Shown: positions 10,650 through 51,053 of the stretch, one piece after another
How positions within the stretch are numbered: the first letter of the stretch is position 1
How the letters are laid out: each line of letters begins with the position of its first letter
NCBI RefSeq assembly: GCF_010093595.1
Contig: NW_022985444.1
Coordinates: 1-64,000 of the forward strand
DNA: 64,000 nt
From: Mytilinidion resinicola
Taxonomy: Eukaryota; Ascomycota; Dothideomycetes; Mytilinidiales; Mytilinidiaceae
Direction: 5' to 3'
Position numbers and translations under genes: made by a program
The notes under the pieces: generated by a model
Told to the model about the DNA's origin: nothing
The model's input: the letters and a program-made list of their open reading frames with translations, nothing else
Databases searched by the model: none

Positions 10650-12489
10650 ATATATTCTATAAGTAAGCCGTCTACCTAAGCAAGCCGTCCACTTTATTAT
10701 AAAAACGCGACGCGTTAACTTCTAACTACTATGCGTCGACAACACAACGTGCAATTAATACAAAATAAAGGTCGAATATGCATGGCTATCGCAGCAATTA
10801 ATTAGCAGCAATTTAAAAGCGAACGGCGCGCTATTACGACATATAACGTACCCAGAAGCACACTTCGAGATCAACGCGCTGGAACAACCCTACGACGCGA
10901 TTCTAAGCCTAATTCGAAGAAGCTTTCTAAGCTGGAGGAATTAGTTGTTGTTCAATATATACTCGACCTGGATTTGCGAGGATTTCCGCCCAACCTGTAT
11001 ACTGTACGAGAGATAGCCAATAAATTACTCGCCGAGCGCGCCGCCGGCTATATTGGCAAGAACTGGCCAGAGAACTTTATTAAGCAAACACCTAAGCTTA
11101 AAACATAATTTAATTAAAAGTATAATTGTTAGAAAGCTTTATATAAGGATCTAAAGGCAATTAGCAATTAGTTTAAGCTTATACGCAATATAAAAGCAAA
11201 GTATAGCATTCTAGATAAAAATATACACAACTTTAATAAAGCTGGCTTCTAAATAGGCGTTATTTTAACTAGCGTAGTTGTAATAGGCTCTAAGCAGTGC
11301 AATTATCCAAAATTAATACAGCTAGGCAATCGCAAATAGATAATAATAATCTAAGGAGTTAATGCCTGTAGATAGGCTATCCCGCTATTTATTATCTTTT
11401 CGGGTAAGTACTACCTCTCTATATAGTATAAGGGTAATAATATACTACTAGACTAGGTTATAGCAGTAAGTAATAATAGCTAGACGATAAATAAGCTTAG
11501 TATTACCTGGCTGCAGTATTTTAATAAGTATATAAAGGATCGCACTATAGGTATATATTAGCTGCTAATTATTAATAGCTATAAGAGCTACTGCTTGCTT
11601 AAATTTAAAGAGATTTGTAAGGAGAATAATATTATTACTCTCTATATACCAGCGTATTTATCGTACCTGCTGCAGCCGCTTAATATTAGCTACTTTACGC
11701 TGTTAAAAAAGGTATACAGGCGCTAAATTAAGGACTTAATACGCTACTATATTAACCACGTTATAAAGCTAGAGTTCTTACTAGTATTTAAAGCAGCCTT
11801 CTATAACTTAATTATAAAAAGCAATATTTGCGCAGGCTTTTAAGGCGCAGGCCTTATACCGCTTAATCTAGAGGCAGTGCTCTTAAAGCTTAATATTCGG
11901 CTTTATATACTATCGCCTCCTGCTGTAGTAGAGGCTTAATAGGAATTAAAAACACTAAGCAACGCTTATAAGCTAGGCTCTTAATTAGCTTTAATTTATA
12001 ATTATATTTAAAGGTATTAAAATAGCTCGCCTACAGCAATTCTTAATGCGCTTAGCAGCCTTTTTAAAAGTGCTACAACGATAATATATTAAGCCACGCT
12101 ACTGCGTAATATAGTTGCCAGCCTTTAAAAGGTAAATAAAGCTGCTATAAAGCGTAAAGCGCGCAAAAAAAAGCAGATCTAGAAAGAAGGAACTCTAATA
12201 ATAGAAGCAGGCTCTTAAATAGCTGCTTAAAGGCTTAATAAGAACGCCTAAAGTAAAAGGCAGTAAGGCGGGGCAGATTTTAGCGGGAGCGCGCGGCGCT
12301 ATAAACGCTGCGGCGAGCTAGGGCATAATATTCGTACGTGTAAAAATAATACAGAGGTTGCTGTAGATTAGGCTATAAGTTATATATAGTTAATATCTAT
12401 TAGCGTTGTAGAGCAATTAACGTTTAAGGCCGGTTTTTATAATAAAGTAGACGGCTTGCTTAGGTAGACGGCTCGCTTATAGAATACGT
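10650..12489 (+). mobile_element. Fot1/pogo-like DNA transposon, copy A
   Basis: The element is bounded by TA target duplications (10648-10649 and 12490-12491) and ~55 bp terminal inverted repeats. The left TIR begins ATATATTCTATAAG and the right one, read inward, ACGTATTCTATAAG. Each TIR contains a doubled module, AAGYRAG plus a six-base core (here CCGTCT/CCGTCC) plus AC. Length is 1,840 bp, normal for Fot1-type elements. It sits inside G1 pol. Confidence 0.9.
10731..12424 (+). pseudogene. Fot1-like transposase of copy A
   Basis: The frame opens with ATG at 10731. Its first 125 codons are nearly clean and give an N-terminal helix-turn-helix region (CENPB/Tc5-like) with the typical K-L-E-E-L-V-V-V-Q-Y-I-L-D-L-D motif near 10925 and G-K-N-W-P near 11060. 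Downstream (11100 on) the DDE region is heavily RIPped with many stops. The C terminus, in the same frame, carries a zinc knuckle, R-C-G-E-L-G-H-N-I-R-T-C (12306-12341), as in this Fot1 subgroup. The 5' 370 bp are much less mutated than the rest. Confidence 0.85.
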
Positions 12490-43327: not shown

Positions 43328-44034
43328 ATGTCTTCTCATACTCCCGCCGCCATGGATGCAGAGAATCAATATCTAGACAGCCACCCACTGACGTTAGCTC
43401 AGCCTGAAACTGGCATGCAGCGCGTAGCTCGAATGGCGGGAGAATTGCGTCGAAGCAAACGTCAAGCGCGCGAACTTGCAAGAGCTGCAGATCCTGATCA
43501 CCAAGCTCGGATCCTCGCAAAGCGCGCTCAGAGCTTCGACCCGGAGCGTCAACGCATTAAGGAGGCCCGTAAAGCCCGCCAGCGTGAAAGAGCAAAGGAT
43601 CCCCAGCGCGCGAAAAGTAAGGCTATGAAAAAGGTCTACCGCAGCGAAGCAAAAGAAGCGCCCAAGAATCGCATACGAGTTTCATGAAGGCATCATCGGT
43701 GTCGGTCTACAAAAGCGCAAGTTTGCTGGTCAAATCATCGACACCGCGGAAGACTCCATCAACCAATCTCTCTTATACGAGAGCTTGCCGCCGTCGCAGC
43801 GAACCGAGATCCTCTTCTGGACTTGGTTCCGTCCACAACAAAATGCCACGTCCTGGCGTCATGGGCACTGCTATCGTCCGACAGAACCCAATCAACTACA
43901 ACTTCCTCGCAACTGAGTTTCCCCTCGGCTACAATGTCGGGGAGTCTGCGGACGCTGAGATCTTTGCCATCACTGCTGCGTTGGGAATGGCTTTGGACTT
44001 GGTGCAGCAGGGATTGAGAGCCCCAGTCGTCATA

Positions 44035-44074
44035 ACGTCCCTCGCTACAGGTCGAGAAACACCCCGCGCCGAGA
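44035..44074 (+). repeat. Left terminal inverted repeat of the NLR element
   Basis: Forty bases starting ACGTCCCTCGCTACAGG and ending GCGCCGAGA. They match the reverse complement of 48774-48813 at 37 positions; all three differences are transitions. Confidence 0.9.
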
Positions 44075-44858
44075 AATATAAGGGGTACTTCAACTTCAAG
44101 CAACTTAAAACTGCGTACATGTTCAGATTCGCGCCAAGTCTATATAAGTTATACGCTATAGCTAGTCCTTAACATTGATTAGCCTTTCTTTTGAAAAATT
44201 ACGTCCTGCATCGTCGCCTGCGTCCTCATTTAGAGAGAGCCTTAATTTCTAGCGAAACAGACTTCCATTCCTATAGAACCACTATTAAGCTCTTACTATT
44301 CTACAATACCTATAAACAGGGTTATCTAAGCCAAAGAATCTTCCTATAATACTTGAAAATCACTATTAGCCTTATATATATTATAGGGCGCATTTTCACA
44401 CAAGATTGCCATCCCTATCGGTACTTCCAACCCTAGCGATTTCCAATCTCGGCTAGTTTAGGCTAATTCTATATTACTTACATTAAGATTACGATGTAAT
44501 TTACAAGTTATATAACATGCTAAGCTTGTAGCTTCTGGTTAGTTATGTATATAGCTGTGCTTAACGCCCAAAATTAAGAGAGACTTAGCTCGGCAAGTTA
44601 TAGCAACTGCCAGCCTTACTCCGCCACGCCCAATATGCAGCCACGCCCAGCCCTCTTTTATACTATTGTTCTGCGATATATTCTTCTATCTTCTAGTCTC
44701 CTATAAAGGCACCCACCTTGACAATAATAACCGCGGCTCTCGACAGCGCCAACTCCTACCCTTTACGCGTGGATGAACAGCGGTGCCTATATTAATCATT
44801 TGCGTTTAGCCCCCCTATCTCAGCTTACTGCTAACCTATCGACCCTCCTCACGTTGCG

Positions 44859-47800
44859 ATGCGGCTCCTCCAGCGCGGTGATAAAAACAAGCTTAGCTTC
44901 ACTAAGGACCTAGTCGGCGACAACGAAGTCCCGCCTTACGCAATACTCTCGCATACCTAGTAAGAGGGTTAAGAGGTGACCTTTAATAACTGGATAAATG
45001 GCCGCACGAAGAGCAAGGCAGGCTATAACAAGATCCTGTTCTGCGCACAGCAGGCTGAGCGCGACGGGTTATACTATTTTTAGGTAGACACCTGCTGCAT
45101 TAATAAGGCAGACCACGTTAAGCTTTAGAATACAATTAACTCTATATTTCGCTGGTACTAGAATACAGCTAAGTGCTACGTCTATCTGTCGGACGTGTTA
45201 ATAACAAAGCGGAAAGCTTGCAGCAGCAGAAGCTTTTAATTTTCCTGGGAGCCAGCTTTTCGAGTGAGCCGATGGTTCAGGCGGGGTTGGACCCTATAAA
45301 AGCTCCTCGCGCCGCGTTCTATCACGTTCTTCTTAGAAAAGGGCAAACCTCTAGGTAATAAGCAAAGTCTAGAGCAGTAGATCTATAAAATAACAGGCAT
45401 CGCTATTAAAGCCCTCTAAGGCATGTCTCTGCTTAGCTTTAGCATTAATAAGCAACTACTATAGGCAAAGAACCGTTAAACAACACGCAAAGAGGATAAA
45501 GCATACTATCTACTTAGTATTTTTGGCATCTTTATACCACTTATCTATAGTAAAGGAGAAGATAACGCATTTAGACAGCTCCGAGACAAGATTAATAAAG
45601 CTACGGATAATCTTCCAGCACAATACCTTTCTAGGTTGCCAACTGCCGAAGGCGCTTTCTTTAACTCCCGTATAGAAGAACATAACTTAATATACCTCCC
45701 GAATATATATACTAAGTTACTGCGTTATATATATAGCTGGGCAAACGATAAAAACAGCAAACTAATATTCTGGCTAAATAGCGCGGCAGGCACAGAAAAG
45801 TCTACAATTGCGCGTACTATTGCGCGGGCCTTCGCCGACTAATAATAACTAGGAGCCAGCTTCTTCTTTAAGAGAGGCGAGGGGAAGCGCAGCAACGCTA
45901 CTTAATTCTTTACTATAATTGCTATATAGCTAGCTTGTCGTGTATTAGAGTTAGGACCTGGAATTAAGAAGGCGATTAAAGCTAATCCAGCTATATATAA
46001 GAAGACTCTAAAGGATTAATTTAAAAAGCTAATCCTCCGTCCACTTTTAGAAGTAGTATATTCACCAGCCTTAGTACTACTTGTTGTAATAAACGCGTTA
46101 GATAAATACGAGCAAGATAGTAATATATAAGTAATCTTCTAGCTCCTTTTATAAATAAGGGATTTTAAGTCGGTATTATTACGGGTTTTTATAACAAGCT
46201 AACTAGAACTGTATATCCGCCTAGGATTTAAATAATTGCCTAATAGTATATTTAAAGACCTAATCCTGTATAAAGTTGTAAAACAAACAATTTAATATAA
46301 TATAAGCGTCTATTTCGAGTATAAACTTAGATAAGTATAGGAAGAACAATTATTATCTTTAGGTTGGCCGAGACCGGATTAAGTTAAAGCGCTAGTAGAA
46401 TAAGCAGTTCTACTATTTATCTTTACTGCTATAGCATGTTAATATATTAGCGATTGGCGTAATAATCCGAAAAAACGCCTAGAGATTATCCTAGGGTATT
46501 AGAAGGTAAAAGTCTTAAAACTTAACGCAATATATCTCTCTATACTTAATTAGCTATTCGATAAAAAAGATAAGGAAGATAGAGAGAAATAGGTATACAA
46601 GTTTCGGGATATTATAGGAAGTATAGTAGTACTAGAAACTCCACTTTCTACTATATTACTTGCTCGCCTTCTTTATATATCTAAGGATAATATTAGTTGC
46701 TAACTAGATTTCCTATACTCTATTCTATATATACTAAACCGCGATAATATACCTATACAGCTTCTACACCTATTATTCCGCGAATTCCTTATTAATGCGT
46801 TAAAAAAGGAGAAGAGCCTGTTCTAGGTAGATAAGAGGGCGATATATAAAAGGTTAGCGTTTTATTGCCTTTAACTTATATCCGGCCCTAACGGCCTACA
46901 ACAAAATATATACAACTTATAGCCTAGGACTTTAAGAAGTAAGGTTAATAAAGGAAAAATTATAACCTACCTATTGCCTAAGTTGTAGTATACTTGCCGT
47001 TACTAGGTGTATTACCTTAAGTAGAGCTAGCGTTTTATTAGTAATAAGGCTACTGCAGATATATTCCTTTAGAAACACTTCCTTTACTAGCTTAAAGTAA
47101 TAAGTCTAATTAGAGATATAAACAAATATATTTCCTTATTAGAAACACTTTCTACGCTAGTTAAGGTAAGGCTTCTACTTTTTCTAATATTTTATTATAC
47201 TAACGTGCAATATAGGTATTAAATAGTGCTCTTTCTGCATTTCTCTATAACGCTTAATAATTTACTCTTTAATTCCGATATATACTCTAAGATGCTCCTC
47301 TATAAATATATTCCTCGGCTCTTATATTTGCCCCAGAAGCAAGTATAGTACGGAAAGCTTTTGTAGACGAAATGCCAGGGTGGATTAAGTTATTGTTAAA
47401 ACGGGAAGACGACTGGGATGCTTGCCGCAGCGTGCTCGAGGGCCATACCTCCTGCGTCAACGCCGTCGCCTTCTCGCCAGACGGCCAGCTGGTCGCGTCC
47501 GCCTCTCACGACAACACAGTGCGGGTGTGGGAGGCGGCGACGGGGTCGTGCCGCAGCGTGCTCGAGGGCTATACCTCCTGCGTCAGCGCTGTCGCCTTCT
47601 CGCCAGACGGCCAGCTGGTCGCGTCCGCCTCTCACGACAACACAGTGCGGGTGTGGGAGGCGGCGACGGGGTCGTGCCGCAGCGTGCTCGAGGGCCATAC
47701 CTCCTGCGTCAACGCCGTCGCCTTCTCGCCAGACGGCCAGCTGGTCGCGTCCGCCTCTCACGACAACACGGTGCGGGTGTGGGAGGCGGCGACGGGGTCG

Positions 47801-48103
47801 TGCCGCAGCGTGCTCGAGGGCCATACCTCCTGGGTCAACGCCGTCGCCTTCTCACCAGACGGCCTGTCTATCCAAACAAATGGCGGTGATATTCTCTTGC
47901 ATGTTCCTACTACGCCATCGCCCTCGTTCCAAAGAGCGCGGCCGTCTCATATCTTTGTACAAGACCAGTGGATTTCTTTGAACCAACAGCAGTTGCTATG
48001 GCTTCCTTTTGAATATCGACCGACTTGCGCTACAGTTAACAGAAACGCAGTCTTTTTAGGGCATTCTTCAGGTCGTACTACGTTCCTTAAATTTCGTATA
48101 TAG
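44859..48103 (+). pseudogene. HET-NACHT-WD40 NLR gene (HNWD type), RIPped outside the WD40 block
   Basis: From ATG 44859 the frame gives an N-terminal HET domain: R-L-L-Q-R, P-P-Y-A-I-L-S-H-T (about 44932-44958), G-Y-N-K-I, V-D-T-C-C-I (about 45090) and C-Y-V-Y-L-S-D-V (about 45175). In the same frame follows a NACHT NTPase: a Walker A reading A-G-T-E-K-S-T (Gly to Glu, near 45787) and a Walker B reading V-V-I-N-A-L-D-K-Y (near 46087), where VIDALDEC is usual. Many TAA/TAG stops occur. After a frame change the C terminus is WD40: 3.5 repeats of 42 residues at 47431-47866, then a clean tail to 48103. This architecture is that of the het-d/e-like family controlling heterokaryon incompatibility and immunity in fungi. 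All visible core substitutions are G-to-A or C-to-T. Confidence 0.88.
47431..47866 (+). repeat. WD40 repeat block, 126 bp period, GC-rich
   Basis: Units start at 47431, 47557, 47683 and (partial) 47809. Each encodes 42 residues with G-H-T-S, A-F-S-P-D-G-Q-L-V-A-S-A-S-H-D and T-V-R-V-W. Copies differ at only a few bases (Y for H and S for N in copy 2, W for C in copy 4). The block is far more GC-rich than the rest of the gene and has no stops. Confidence 0.95.
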
Positions 48104-48773
48104 GCCTTGTACACACTTTCTCTATCTTATTATATATTTCTTTACTAATCTCTATTTTATAGAGGGGGCCGGGGAGCAGCAAGTATTTATATTATAAGAG
48201 GGACACCTAGAATCTTCTATGCTGATTAATATAACCTTCTATAACTATTAGCGACAGAAAACGCACGAGATATAAGTAGCAATGCACACAGCCTAGCAGC
48301 TAAAAATAGTCAACACGTGACTATTTATAGACGTATCTAGAAGAGTGCCACACGGTTAGGTATAGCATTAAATACAATACAATATGCTTATTATCCAGCG
48401 TATTATTATGTAAACACGCCAGCTCTCCACGCCAAGACATTCTTAAGGCTACTTTGCACGGATAAATTTGGAGCGCATATTCCTAGTGGCTAAGCTTCTT
48501 TAAATTATAGATCTATCTTTTCTTATAACAGAACTATTATTTACGTACTCCGAAATTTCAAAAGGCGTTAATAGCTGTTGTGCAGCAGGGGTGGAAACCT
48601 AAAATTGTTCTAGATGCTGTGAACAGAACGATTAACGGTATGACCAAAACTGTCGTATTTTTCGTACTAAAGACTGGTCCCTAGAAGGAAAATATTCCAA
48701 GAAAAATAATTCATTAACTATGGCTTAATAGAGTCGCGAGGAAAGGAGTTAAGATGCCTAAACAATAGGTTCA
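48104..48773. other. 3' noncoding part of the NLR element
   Basis: AT-rich sequence between the WD40 stop and the right inverted repeat. No gene, transposase motif or further repeat was recognised. The part next to the right TIR (about 48540-48720) is less mutated than 48110-48500. Confidence 0.5.
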
Positions 48774-48813
48774 TCTCGGCGCGGGGTGTTTCTCGACCCG
48801 CAGTGAGGGACGT
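48774..48813 (-). repeat. Right terminal inverted repeat of the NLR element
   Basis: Read inward it begins ACGTCCCTCACTGCGGG. It is the partner of 44035-44074, and the outer end is followed by the TA target duplication. Confidence 0.9.
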
Positions 48814-49782
48814 TACTCTCTGATGTCGGTACGACGCTAGAGAACATTCAGTATGGTGATTGGTGGCAATTGGTCCGTTAAAATCGACGCGATGGGCTTT
48901 GGAAGATTTGTATGAACGAGCAGAAATGTTGGCAGCAGCCGGGATAAAGTGGACGTTACGATAGGTCAAGAGACATGAGCACGGAGTAAAAGGAAACCCC
49001 GCTGCCCATACGGCGGCGGACCAAGCGGTTAAGAAATCCAGAGATCGCTTTAAAGAGCAGATTCTAGAAGGTATAACAGCCCTGCCACTCAAGTTGCTGG
49101 AAGCGGACACAGAGTTCAGAGTGGAGTTCTTCTTTCGTGCGCAAAGACAGTTAATGGTCAACGGAGCGTATATCCATGTATGTCTGGTACTGGAAGGTCA
49201 TCCAGGCCAGATTTTAGTACAAGACTAGGTTAGATAATGGCGGCTAGGTGTTAATGTAGAGGCTTAAGTGGGACGGGTGAGTAGCTCAAGCACTGGAAAT
49301 AATGTTTCCATCAATCGGACGACGGAAATGTGCACAGTTTGAAGATGAAGGAAACTACAGATGTGCTTAACAAAAGTTTCCGCGGCGCTAAAATAGCGTA
49401 AAGCCACAAAACGCCACCAGAATTCCTTACCAGACAGTACCCTCCTGTTTTCTCATACAAACGCGTCTGCAGAGGCACAACTCGGCGTCCTCAACCCCCG
49501 AACCTGATTTTTTGAGGCTCTATACACTAGCTAGCAAGGTAATATCACCAGATTCTGTGGTGTTGCAGTTCTAACAAGCCGTGTAGGTGCCCGAGACACC
49601 CCTCCGCGACTCCGACGTTCATTCGCACGCAGCGTCTCTGTCATATTCCTCGCCATACAATCGAGCAGGAAGGCAAGCAGGAGGACTATATTCGTGATCT
49701 ATGACGTCAATTAGTCGCCAAACATACGCTTTTTGGTGACCTTCCTGCCGCTCCGTCGTAGGCCTTGCTCAGCAGCAGCTGT

Positions 49783-49939
49783 AGCAGCATCTGTAGCAGC
49801 ATCTGTAGCAGCATCTATAGCAGCATCTGTAGCAGCATCTATAGCAGCATCTGTAGCAGCATCTATAGCAGCATCTGTAGCAGCATCTGTAGCAGCATCT
49901 ATAGCAGCATCTGTAGCAGCATCTGTGGCAGCATTTGTA
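49783..49939 (-). repeat. 12 bp minisatellite encoding (Ala-Ala-Thr/Ile-Asp)n
   Basis: About 13 units of AGCAGCATCTGT/AGCAGCATCTAT on the plus strand. In the transposase frame they read AATD or AAID. The two forms differ by one transition (ACA to ATA on the coding strand, a CpA to TpA change). Repeats of this kind are prone to slippage. Confidence 0.95.
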
Positions 49940-51053
49940 GCAGGCGTAGCTGTAGCAGGCGTAGCACGCTGCGGTGCTGCACGCCGCGGTGCTGCACGCC
50001 GCGGTGCACCAGGCAGCTCGTACGGCAGCGCTGTCGACGTAGCTGCAGGATCGCCTGCCTGGAAAGTGACCGTTCGAGCACTTGTTTTGGCTGGCCTGCC
50101 ACCTGTTTGTGATGCTTCGCCCGTCTTGAATATGGAAGGCCCGCCCGAGGCCTCTTCTGCTGCCCGCTCTCTGTGTCGCCGTAGTCTTGATTGTGGTGAT
50201 GCTTGGCGCGGGTGGTGAGGTTTCTTGTGTGCCGATTTCAATCTCCTCATCGTCCTCAACGTCTATCCAGTCGTCTGGTCTTATCAAACGGCGAGGTTTC
50301 TCGCTAGCGCCCTCTCTATATTCATTGCCTCCTTCTAATCTAATAATCTCTTGAATGTGACGCGGTATTCTCTTAATCTAAGCCTGAATCCGCCATTGCT
50401 CTATATCTCGCCAGGCTCGCCGCTATACTCGGGTTCCAACCGCTTTAGAAGAAGGCGCACCCTTCTTAGTAGTTATTTGCTTTATATAAGGCCAGGCGGG
50501 CTTAATTATATTAAAATCTGGTAAGTTTAGACACTAAAGAAGCCGCTTAACCTTAGCTAATTTAAATACAGTTCCTTAGTGGTAATAAGCATGCGTAGGA
50601 GCGCAATTTTCCTAGATAACTGTTCCTGGCCTCTTTTAGGCGTATTCTAATGCAAAAGGTAACAGCTTAGGCTTAAGTATATACTTTATATAGCAAAACT
50701 AGTCTATGCTAGTACCCCCTACTTTTATAAGTTTGCTATTATTTTCTATAAACCTTTATTAAGGTTTCCTGCCTCTATAGTTATATATTGCACTAAAACA
50801 GCCTATATAATTATTAAGCTCCTATTTTTACTTTATAGTAGGCTTAATAGCCGCGTTTATTTCTTCTAATTTATTTTTAGCTTTATAATGCTCCTACGCA
50901 GTCTTAGTATTCTAAATATAGTAAGGTTTTTTCTTATATAAGAATTAACCCTAGAATATAAACTTTTAATAGCCCTTTTAGCGCGGGCAGATAGTAGACT
51001 TATTAAACCTTTTATTAGCTCTATACTATACTTTATATCCTCTATAATAGTGC

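Follow-up and report, generated by a model that had tools for sequence, protein, structure and literature searches.

The 64,000-nt stretch of Mytilinidion resinicola DNA analyzed here (the window) begins in subtelomeric sequence, with a CCCTAA telomere-like repeat at positions 1-95, and carries at 44035-48813 an element in which a broken NOD-like receptor (NLR) gene lies between terminal inverted repeats (TIRs) (Table 1). As the first-pass annotation of this DNA had claimed, the 40-bp inverted ends are identical at 37 positions (39/42 when the TA is counted) and flanked by TA on both sides; when both 150-bp end regions were shuffled 100 times at the mononucleotide level, no ungapped 40-mer scored above 25. 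The claimed lack of a recognizable transposase was also borne out, as tblastn with two family transposases as queries (E 1e-3) found none within the element. Because this copy holds no DDE transposase, it is filed solely as a non-autonomous member of a family defined by its ends. Numbers preceded by C denote loci in the same 47.1-Mb, 44-contig genome.

The enclosed gene has the domain order HET, NACHT, WD40. Pfam matched NPHP3_N, a NACHT-type domain, at 45735-46199 (E 3e-16) and WD40 in four stretches (E 3.5e-49). The HET part falls under the Pfam cut-off in this copy (13.4 vs. 22.5 bits) and was recognized by alignment of 44859-45809, over 320 columns, to the intact protein of the C3 member, which itself matches HET at E 1e-14. 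Many stops precede the WD40 frame; thus, the NLR gene announced by the first-pass annotation is present as a pseudogene. Repeat-induced point mutation (RIP) has left its mark on the element outside the WD40 stretch, where the composite index is 0.73, vs. values between -0.60 and -0.99 in three 300-bp segments to the left. Positions 47400-47900 are not RIP-mutated (composite index, -0.18; GC content, 0.68), and this part of the RIP-killed gene holds near-identical WD40 units (122/126 between neighbors). In an excerpt describing Podospora NWD pseudogenes, WD40 units are likewise free of RIP, which is attributed there to exchange with active loci (PMC1805685).

The ends recur throughout the genome. 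The 25-base core of the window end was found at 16 sites (up to three mismatches) and a related end pattern at 62, against 0 for the reversed-pattern control, which excludes that the ends are unique to this locus. The left 426 bp had at least 41 genome matches and the right 428 bp had 26, self included. Merged searches gave at least 100 distinct ends, including the window's two and with both ends of one element counted separately. Among them are 17 pairs that converge and 3 that diverge, at spacings of 0.8-17 kb; three genome searches scored part of their candidates (40/104, 150/260, and, for the left 426 bp, 40/63), and the counts are therefore lower bounds. Three of the 17 convergent pairs (C2:479524, C15:370239, and C28:86085) were not examined in sequence, and the pair at C10:1459337-1467038 overlaps a 1.1-kb copy. 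The inverted ends, TA included, are alike at 30-39 of 42 positions in eight elements; no similarity was detected at E 0.01 among the flanks (84-100 bp) of ten elements. The arms of several copies contain similar open frames of about 125-141 aa (L057, 133-555; L049, 90-464; L055, 146-526).

NLR genes lie predominantly on the inner side of these ends. A nucleotide-binding domain occurs within 8 kb inward of 28 of the 100 ends and outward of 3; within 4 kb, the figures are 23 and 2. In terms of loci, 21 of the 132 NLR loci lie inward of an end, the total of 132 having been obtained after dropping second fragments or overlaps (12 of 121 NPHP3_N and 1 of 25 NB-ARC rows) and merging one pair. A listed binding domain lies between the ends of seven of the 17 convergent pairs. 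Reading of three further pairs (C4, C10:1587470, and C29) revealed TPR NLR-type genes; for C4 and C10:1587470, no NPHP3_N or NB-ARC match was listed, and Pfam returned TPR repeats only. The check proposed in the first-pass annotation, a search for further pairs of ends that are spaced 3-8 kb and contain NLRs, thus had a positive outcome in this genome. The family carries several NLR designs, i.e., HET-NACHT-WD40, PNP-NACHT-ANK, PigL_N-NACHT, SesB-TPR, and NB-ARC-TPR, several of which retain open frames (C3, C11, and C1).

Table 1. Features of the window element and NLR-type or repeat-protein cargo of other family members
Feature	Position	Strand	Evidence or remark
Left TA (target duplication)	44033-44034	none	
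Left terminal inverted repeat (40 bp), beginning with ACGT	44035-44074	+	37/40 vs. right end; recurs in genome
Left arm common to other members	44035-44533	+	Aligned to C10, C17, C16, C13, and C38 copies
HET-containing N-terminal part, RIP-mutated NLR gene	44859-45809	+	tblastn with intact C3 HET-NACHT: 46%, E 8e-77
NACHT-type NTPase region and following part, RIP-mutated	45627-47207	+	tblastn with C3 NACHT protein: 48%, E 5e-151
Open frame, four WD40 units, no RIP mutation	47372-48103	+	Units 1-3 122/126 alike; unit 4 cut short
Right arm common to other members	48386-48813	+	
Right terminal inverted repeat, 40 bp	48774-48813	-	
Right TA (target duplication)	48814-48815	none	
PNP_UDP_1, NPHP3_N, ANK	C11:1409803-1414800		Pfam
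PNP_UDP_1, NPHP3_N, ANK	C1:1172032-1178960		Pfam
PNP_UDP_1, NPHP3_N	C14:39789-46270		Pfam
TPR, NB-ARC slightly under cut-off	C15:1104137-1109011		Pfam
HET-NPHP3_N, open 797-aa frame	C3:2361733 to about 2366530		Pfam
PigL_N (SesA sub-cut-off), NPHP3_N	C3, one end at 1285609; no second end found		Pfam
Ses_B, NACHT/NB-ARC sub-cut-off, TPR	C29:19838-28988		Pfam
TPR only	C4:1877796-1883143		Pfam
TPR only	C10:1587470-1597584		Pfam
HEAT repeats	C7, end at 183701		Pfam
NACHT-WD40 parts in pieces	C17:1104495-1120091		

Some candidates were left out of the NLR cargo. The C7 protein has HEAT repeats, no binding domain was seen in it, and the far end of its element was not found; its open 668-aa frame (C7:186868-188871) shows 99-bp spacing with high internal identity and runs on the strand opposite the transposase. 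C27:557501 has an ORF that looks BTB-like by eye, and its far end was not found either. A Clr5-like N terminus seen by eye at C23 had no Pfam match, leaving ANK repeats alone.

Precise insertion is documented by the closest sibling, C10:623106-627493, which matches the window element at 87% identity across 3.2 kb that run from the NACHT region through the right end and at 74% across the left 500 bp; no HET part was found in it. The two copies differ over the 3.2 kb by 374 substitutions (302 transitions, 178 in RIP context). They are collinear up to both ends, and their flanks are unrelated. The C10 sibling splits a dispersed repeat of about 220 bp, whose halves (622986-623105 and 627494-627600) overlap by TA only. 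Nine empty-site copies of this repeat (89-92%) are continuous through the join, and the six examined have a single TA where C10 has two, demonstrating precise insertion with TA duplication. The interrupted repeat is itself MITE (miniature inverted-repeat transposable element)-like, with many near-identical copies (six examined and 31 further matches). The TPR element C10:1587470-1597584 interrupts a BCS1-like AAA gene in its 3' region, and removal of the element joins the open reading frame (ORF) in frame over 58 codons, a predicted join that we regard as supportive only.

Precise TA-duplicating insertion is established for this sibling and not for the window copy. The first-pass annotation had described a host RNase H domain that rejoins when the window element is removed, which the analysis did not confirm. 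The joined flank has no RNase H match in Pfam (E up to 10) or among PDB sequences, where two weak alanine racemase matches were the only hits, and its single protein match is probably the window locus itself. The open frame across the join ends at a stop after 21 further codons, and the stretch that by motif looks like RNase H sits in a different frame. Since no second DNA copy of the left flank occurs in this genome, the searched sequence offers no paralogous empty site for the window insertion. RNase H was accordingly dropped as empty-site proof.

Other members with family ends or arms, namely, C7, C22, C29, and C8, contain a DDE_1 transposase of the Fot1/pogo kind. The DDE_1 piece of C7 identified 22 genome loci at 49% identity or more, after merging of fragments (hereafter, the linked group). 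Arm and transposase of C7 and C22 together form a single 1,582-column alignment block (82%). The arm-transposase order is the same in C29, with an unaligned gap; in C8, a different arm type is followed by a nested insert and then the transposase. Pfam matched DDE_1 in the C22 (E 1e-20) and C20 (E 1e-32) proteins, with HTH_Tnp_Tc5 under the cut-off in both. Of the 22 linked-group loci, 6 are situated inside a listed end at a distance of no more than 3 kb, vs. 3 of 138 other DDE_1 loci (P = 2e-4), a count that omits the C22 arm, seen only on sequence inspection; 5 of 22, vs. 3 of 138, have an NLR binding domain no farther than 5 kb away (P = 0.0013). C29:19838-28988 is one unit with TA on both sides that combines a transposase broken by stops with an NLR on the other strand. 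The C4 NLR element retains a remnant of the transposase N terminus on the same side as in the composite, which suggests that NLR-only copies may derive from composite transposase-NLR ones. A DDE_1 match in a "2,118-aa frame" at C4:1870989 proved to be an artifact of a run of N. At C20:193391-195899, a linked-group transposase and a HET-domain ORF stand head to head, with no family end recognized nearby.

We consider it likely that 44035-48813 represents a degenerate non-autonomous member of a Fot1/pogo-like family (Tc1/mariner superfamily) with recurrent NLR cargo, moved by the DDE transposase of its members. A transposase from other members, some of which carry it together with an NLR, would recognize the ends of about 40 bp starting with ACGT and their arms of about 400 bp, and would insert the units between such ends into TA sites. 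NLR genes would thereby travel and multiply as passengers, alone or alongside the transposase. Repeated copies, the window copy among them, would then be killed by RIP, and WD40 units might be kept clean via exchange with live genes. The first-pass annotation had proposed a non-autonomous NLR-carrying transposon with a Fot1/pogo- or Tc1-type mover; the recurrent TA ends, the C10 empty site, and the joining of DDE_1 to the arms favor this proposal in its Fot1/pogo form, and the single capture of an NLR that it envisaged gave way to many designs, some with a transposase. Capture of the NLR itself, like movement by the linked transposase, is a step that we infer, and such movement may be what multiplied these NLRs.

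Several observations weigh against this explanation. For 72 of the 100 ends, the 8 kb on the inner side contain no NLR binding domain, and some members lack an NLR altogether, e.g., C14:449957-456845 (in which no ORF reaches 110 aa), C10:1465897-1467038 (1.1 kb long, with nothing inside), and C23 (ANK only). DDE_1 genes of any group are more often inward than outward of ends (14 vs. 6 ends within 8 kb), partly via nested elements. C22 has no recognizable end with TA, the far end of C7 was not found, the right flank of C11 is TG instead of TA, and C13 and C20 show the linked transposase in another position or orientation. The empty-site proof covers the C10 sibling and not the window copy itself, and all evidence comes from one genome.

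The strongest competitor, which we nevertheless regard as unlikely, is that the mover belongs to another Fot1-like group, with 50-bp TIRs starting TAACGTAATCC, and that the linked group merely nests in family elements. This other group likewise starts with TA-ACGT. One of its elements, C14:1289336-1291186, is inserted in a family copy and combines perfect TIRs of 50 bp with a DDE_1 frame that is open over 576 aa (1289339-1291066); C31 holds a further nested element, whose TIRs are 48 bp long. The divergent placement of the linked group in C13 and C20 would also fit. However, arm and linked transposase form one aligned block in C7 and C22, and besides two palindromes the inverted pairs found around the C7 transposase are short and weak (17 nt at most). 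The enrichment of the linked group inside listed ends points the same way, and two of the three other DDE_1 loci found there (C14 and C31) are nested elements with their own TIRs. C14:1288823 and C31:308552 were rejected as transposase-bearing members since their DDE_1 genes belong to these nested elements.

Less probable still is mere bracketing, i.e., that an ordinary TIR family inserted on both sides of NLRs, with both accumulating in unstable AT-rich or subtelomeric regions. The NLR-free majority of ends, the telomere repeat at base 1 of the window, and the nested insertions common in family elements are compatible with it. Chance neighborhood, however, does not sit well with the inward excess (28 vs. 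3) and the surplus of convergent pairs (17 vs. 3), and the window and C10 copies are collinear to both ends amid unrelated flanks, the C10 unit having entered its repeat as one piece. Segmental or ectopic duplication of a single NLR locus, to which copies not bounded by both ends (C29:82314-84516; fragments in C16 and C13) might testify, is very improbable as the source of the HNWD copies, given that window-C10 homology stops at the inverted ends with different flanks beyond and that the empty site corresponding to the C10 copy is exact and TA-flanked.

The NLR-carrying transposon family that we favor resembles known systems in part. First, it shares TA duplication, TIRs, DDE_1 in linked members, and a fungal host with the Fot1 subfamily of pogo-like Tc1/mariner elements, from which, as described in the cited portion, it differs in its arms of about 400 bp, its recurrent NLR cargo, and a window copy without transposase (PMC7325037). 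Second, NACHT-WD40 architecture, near-identical WD40 units, and RIP-killed pseudogenes with RIP-escaping WD40 recall the het-d/het-e (HNWD) family of Podospora anserina; the excerpted account describes no transposon ends around those genes, whereas the gene reported here lies between such ends (PMC1805685). Third, a fungal hAT transposon is reported to have captured and amplified a cellular gene, histone H3, the copies of which were inactivated by RIP (PMC6710886). That case concerns another superfamily and one housekeeping gene, whereas here many NLR designs, several with open frames, occur under one end-family. Starships also carry HET/NLR-type genes (HET/NACHT cargo) but are, in the section cited, very large and dependent on a DUF3435 recombinase, unlike the present elements, mostly 4-10 kb (PMC9594970). 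TA duplication, TIRs, and linked DDE_1 argue for a class other than Starship, an assignment made with no search aimed at DUF3435. Among the matches listed from the open-licence PMC literature (at most 20 of up to 8,314), a scope outside which subscription journals and bioRxiv fall, no title or abstract described NLRs as cargo of a TA-type TIR family, the nearest cases being the Starships and the hAT-histone H3 element, and the main text of the survey PMC4986451 contains neither "transpos" nor "inverted repeat."

A family of this kind would supply a means for the growth and reshuffling of fungal NLR repertoires under RIP. It predicts, if true, NLR presence/absence polymorphism at TA sites, and the question of whether genes for non-self recognition move as mobile units becomes testable. 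A dead element copy thus suggests a route for the spread of immune-receptor-type genes through a genome. More tentatively, and on balance doubtfully, the NLR could be a standing second gene of the transposon lineage instead of a chance passenger, with full members being transposase-NLR pairs; module exchange between common ends would then assemble and spread receptors, RIP would prune copies, and the NLR may serve the element.

Elsewhere in the window, AT-rich blocks extend over approximately 7-26 kb and 51-59 kb, and DDE_1 matches are located at 11343, 18078, and 23232. To the right of the element, a tandem repeat of a short GCAGCATCTGTA-like unit occupies positions 49770-49960.

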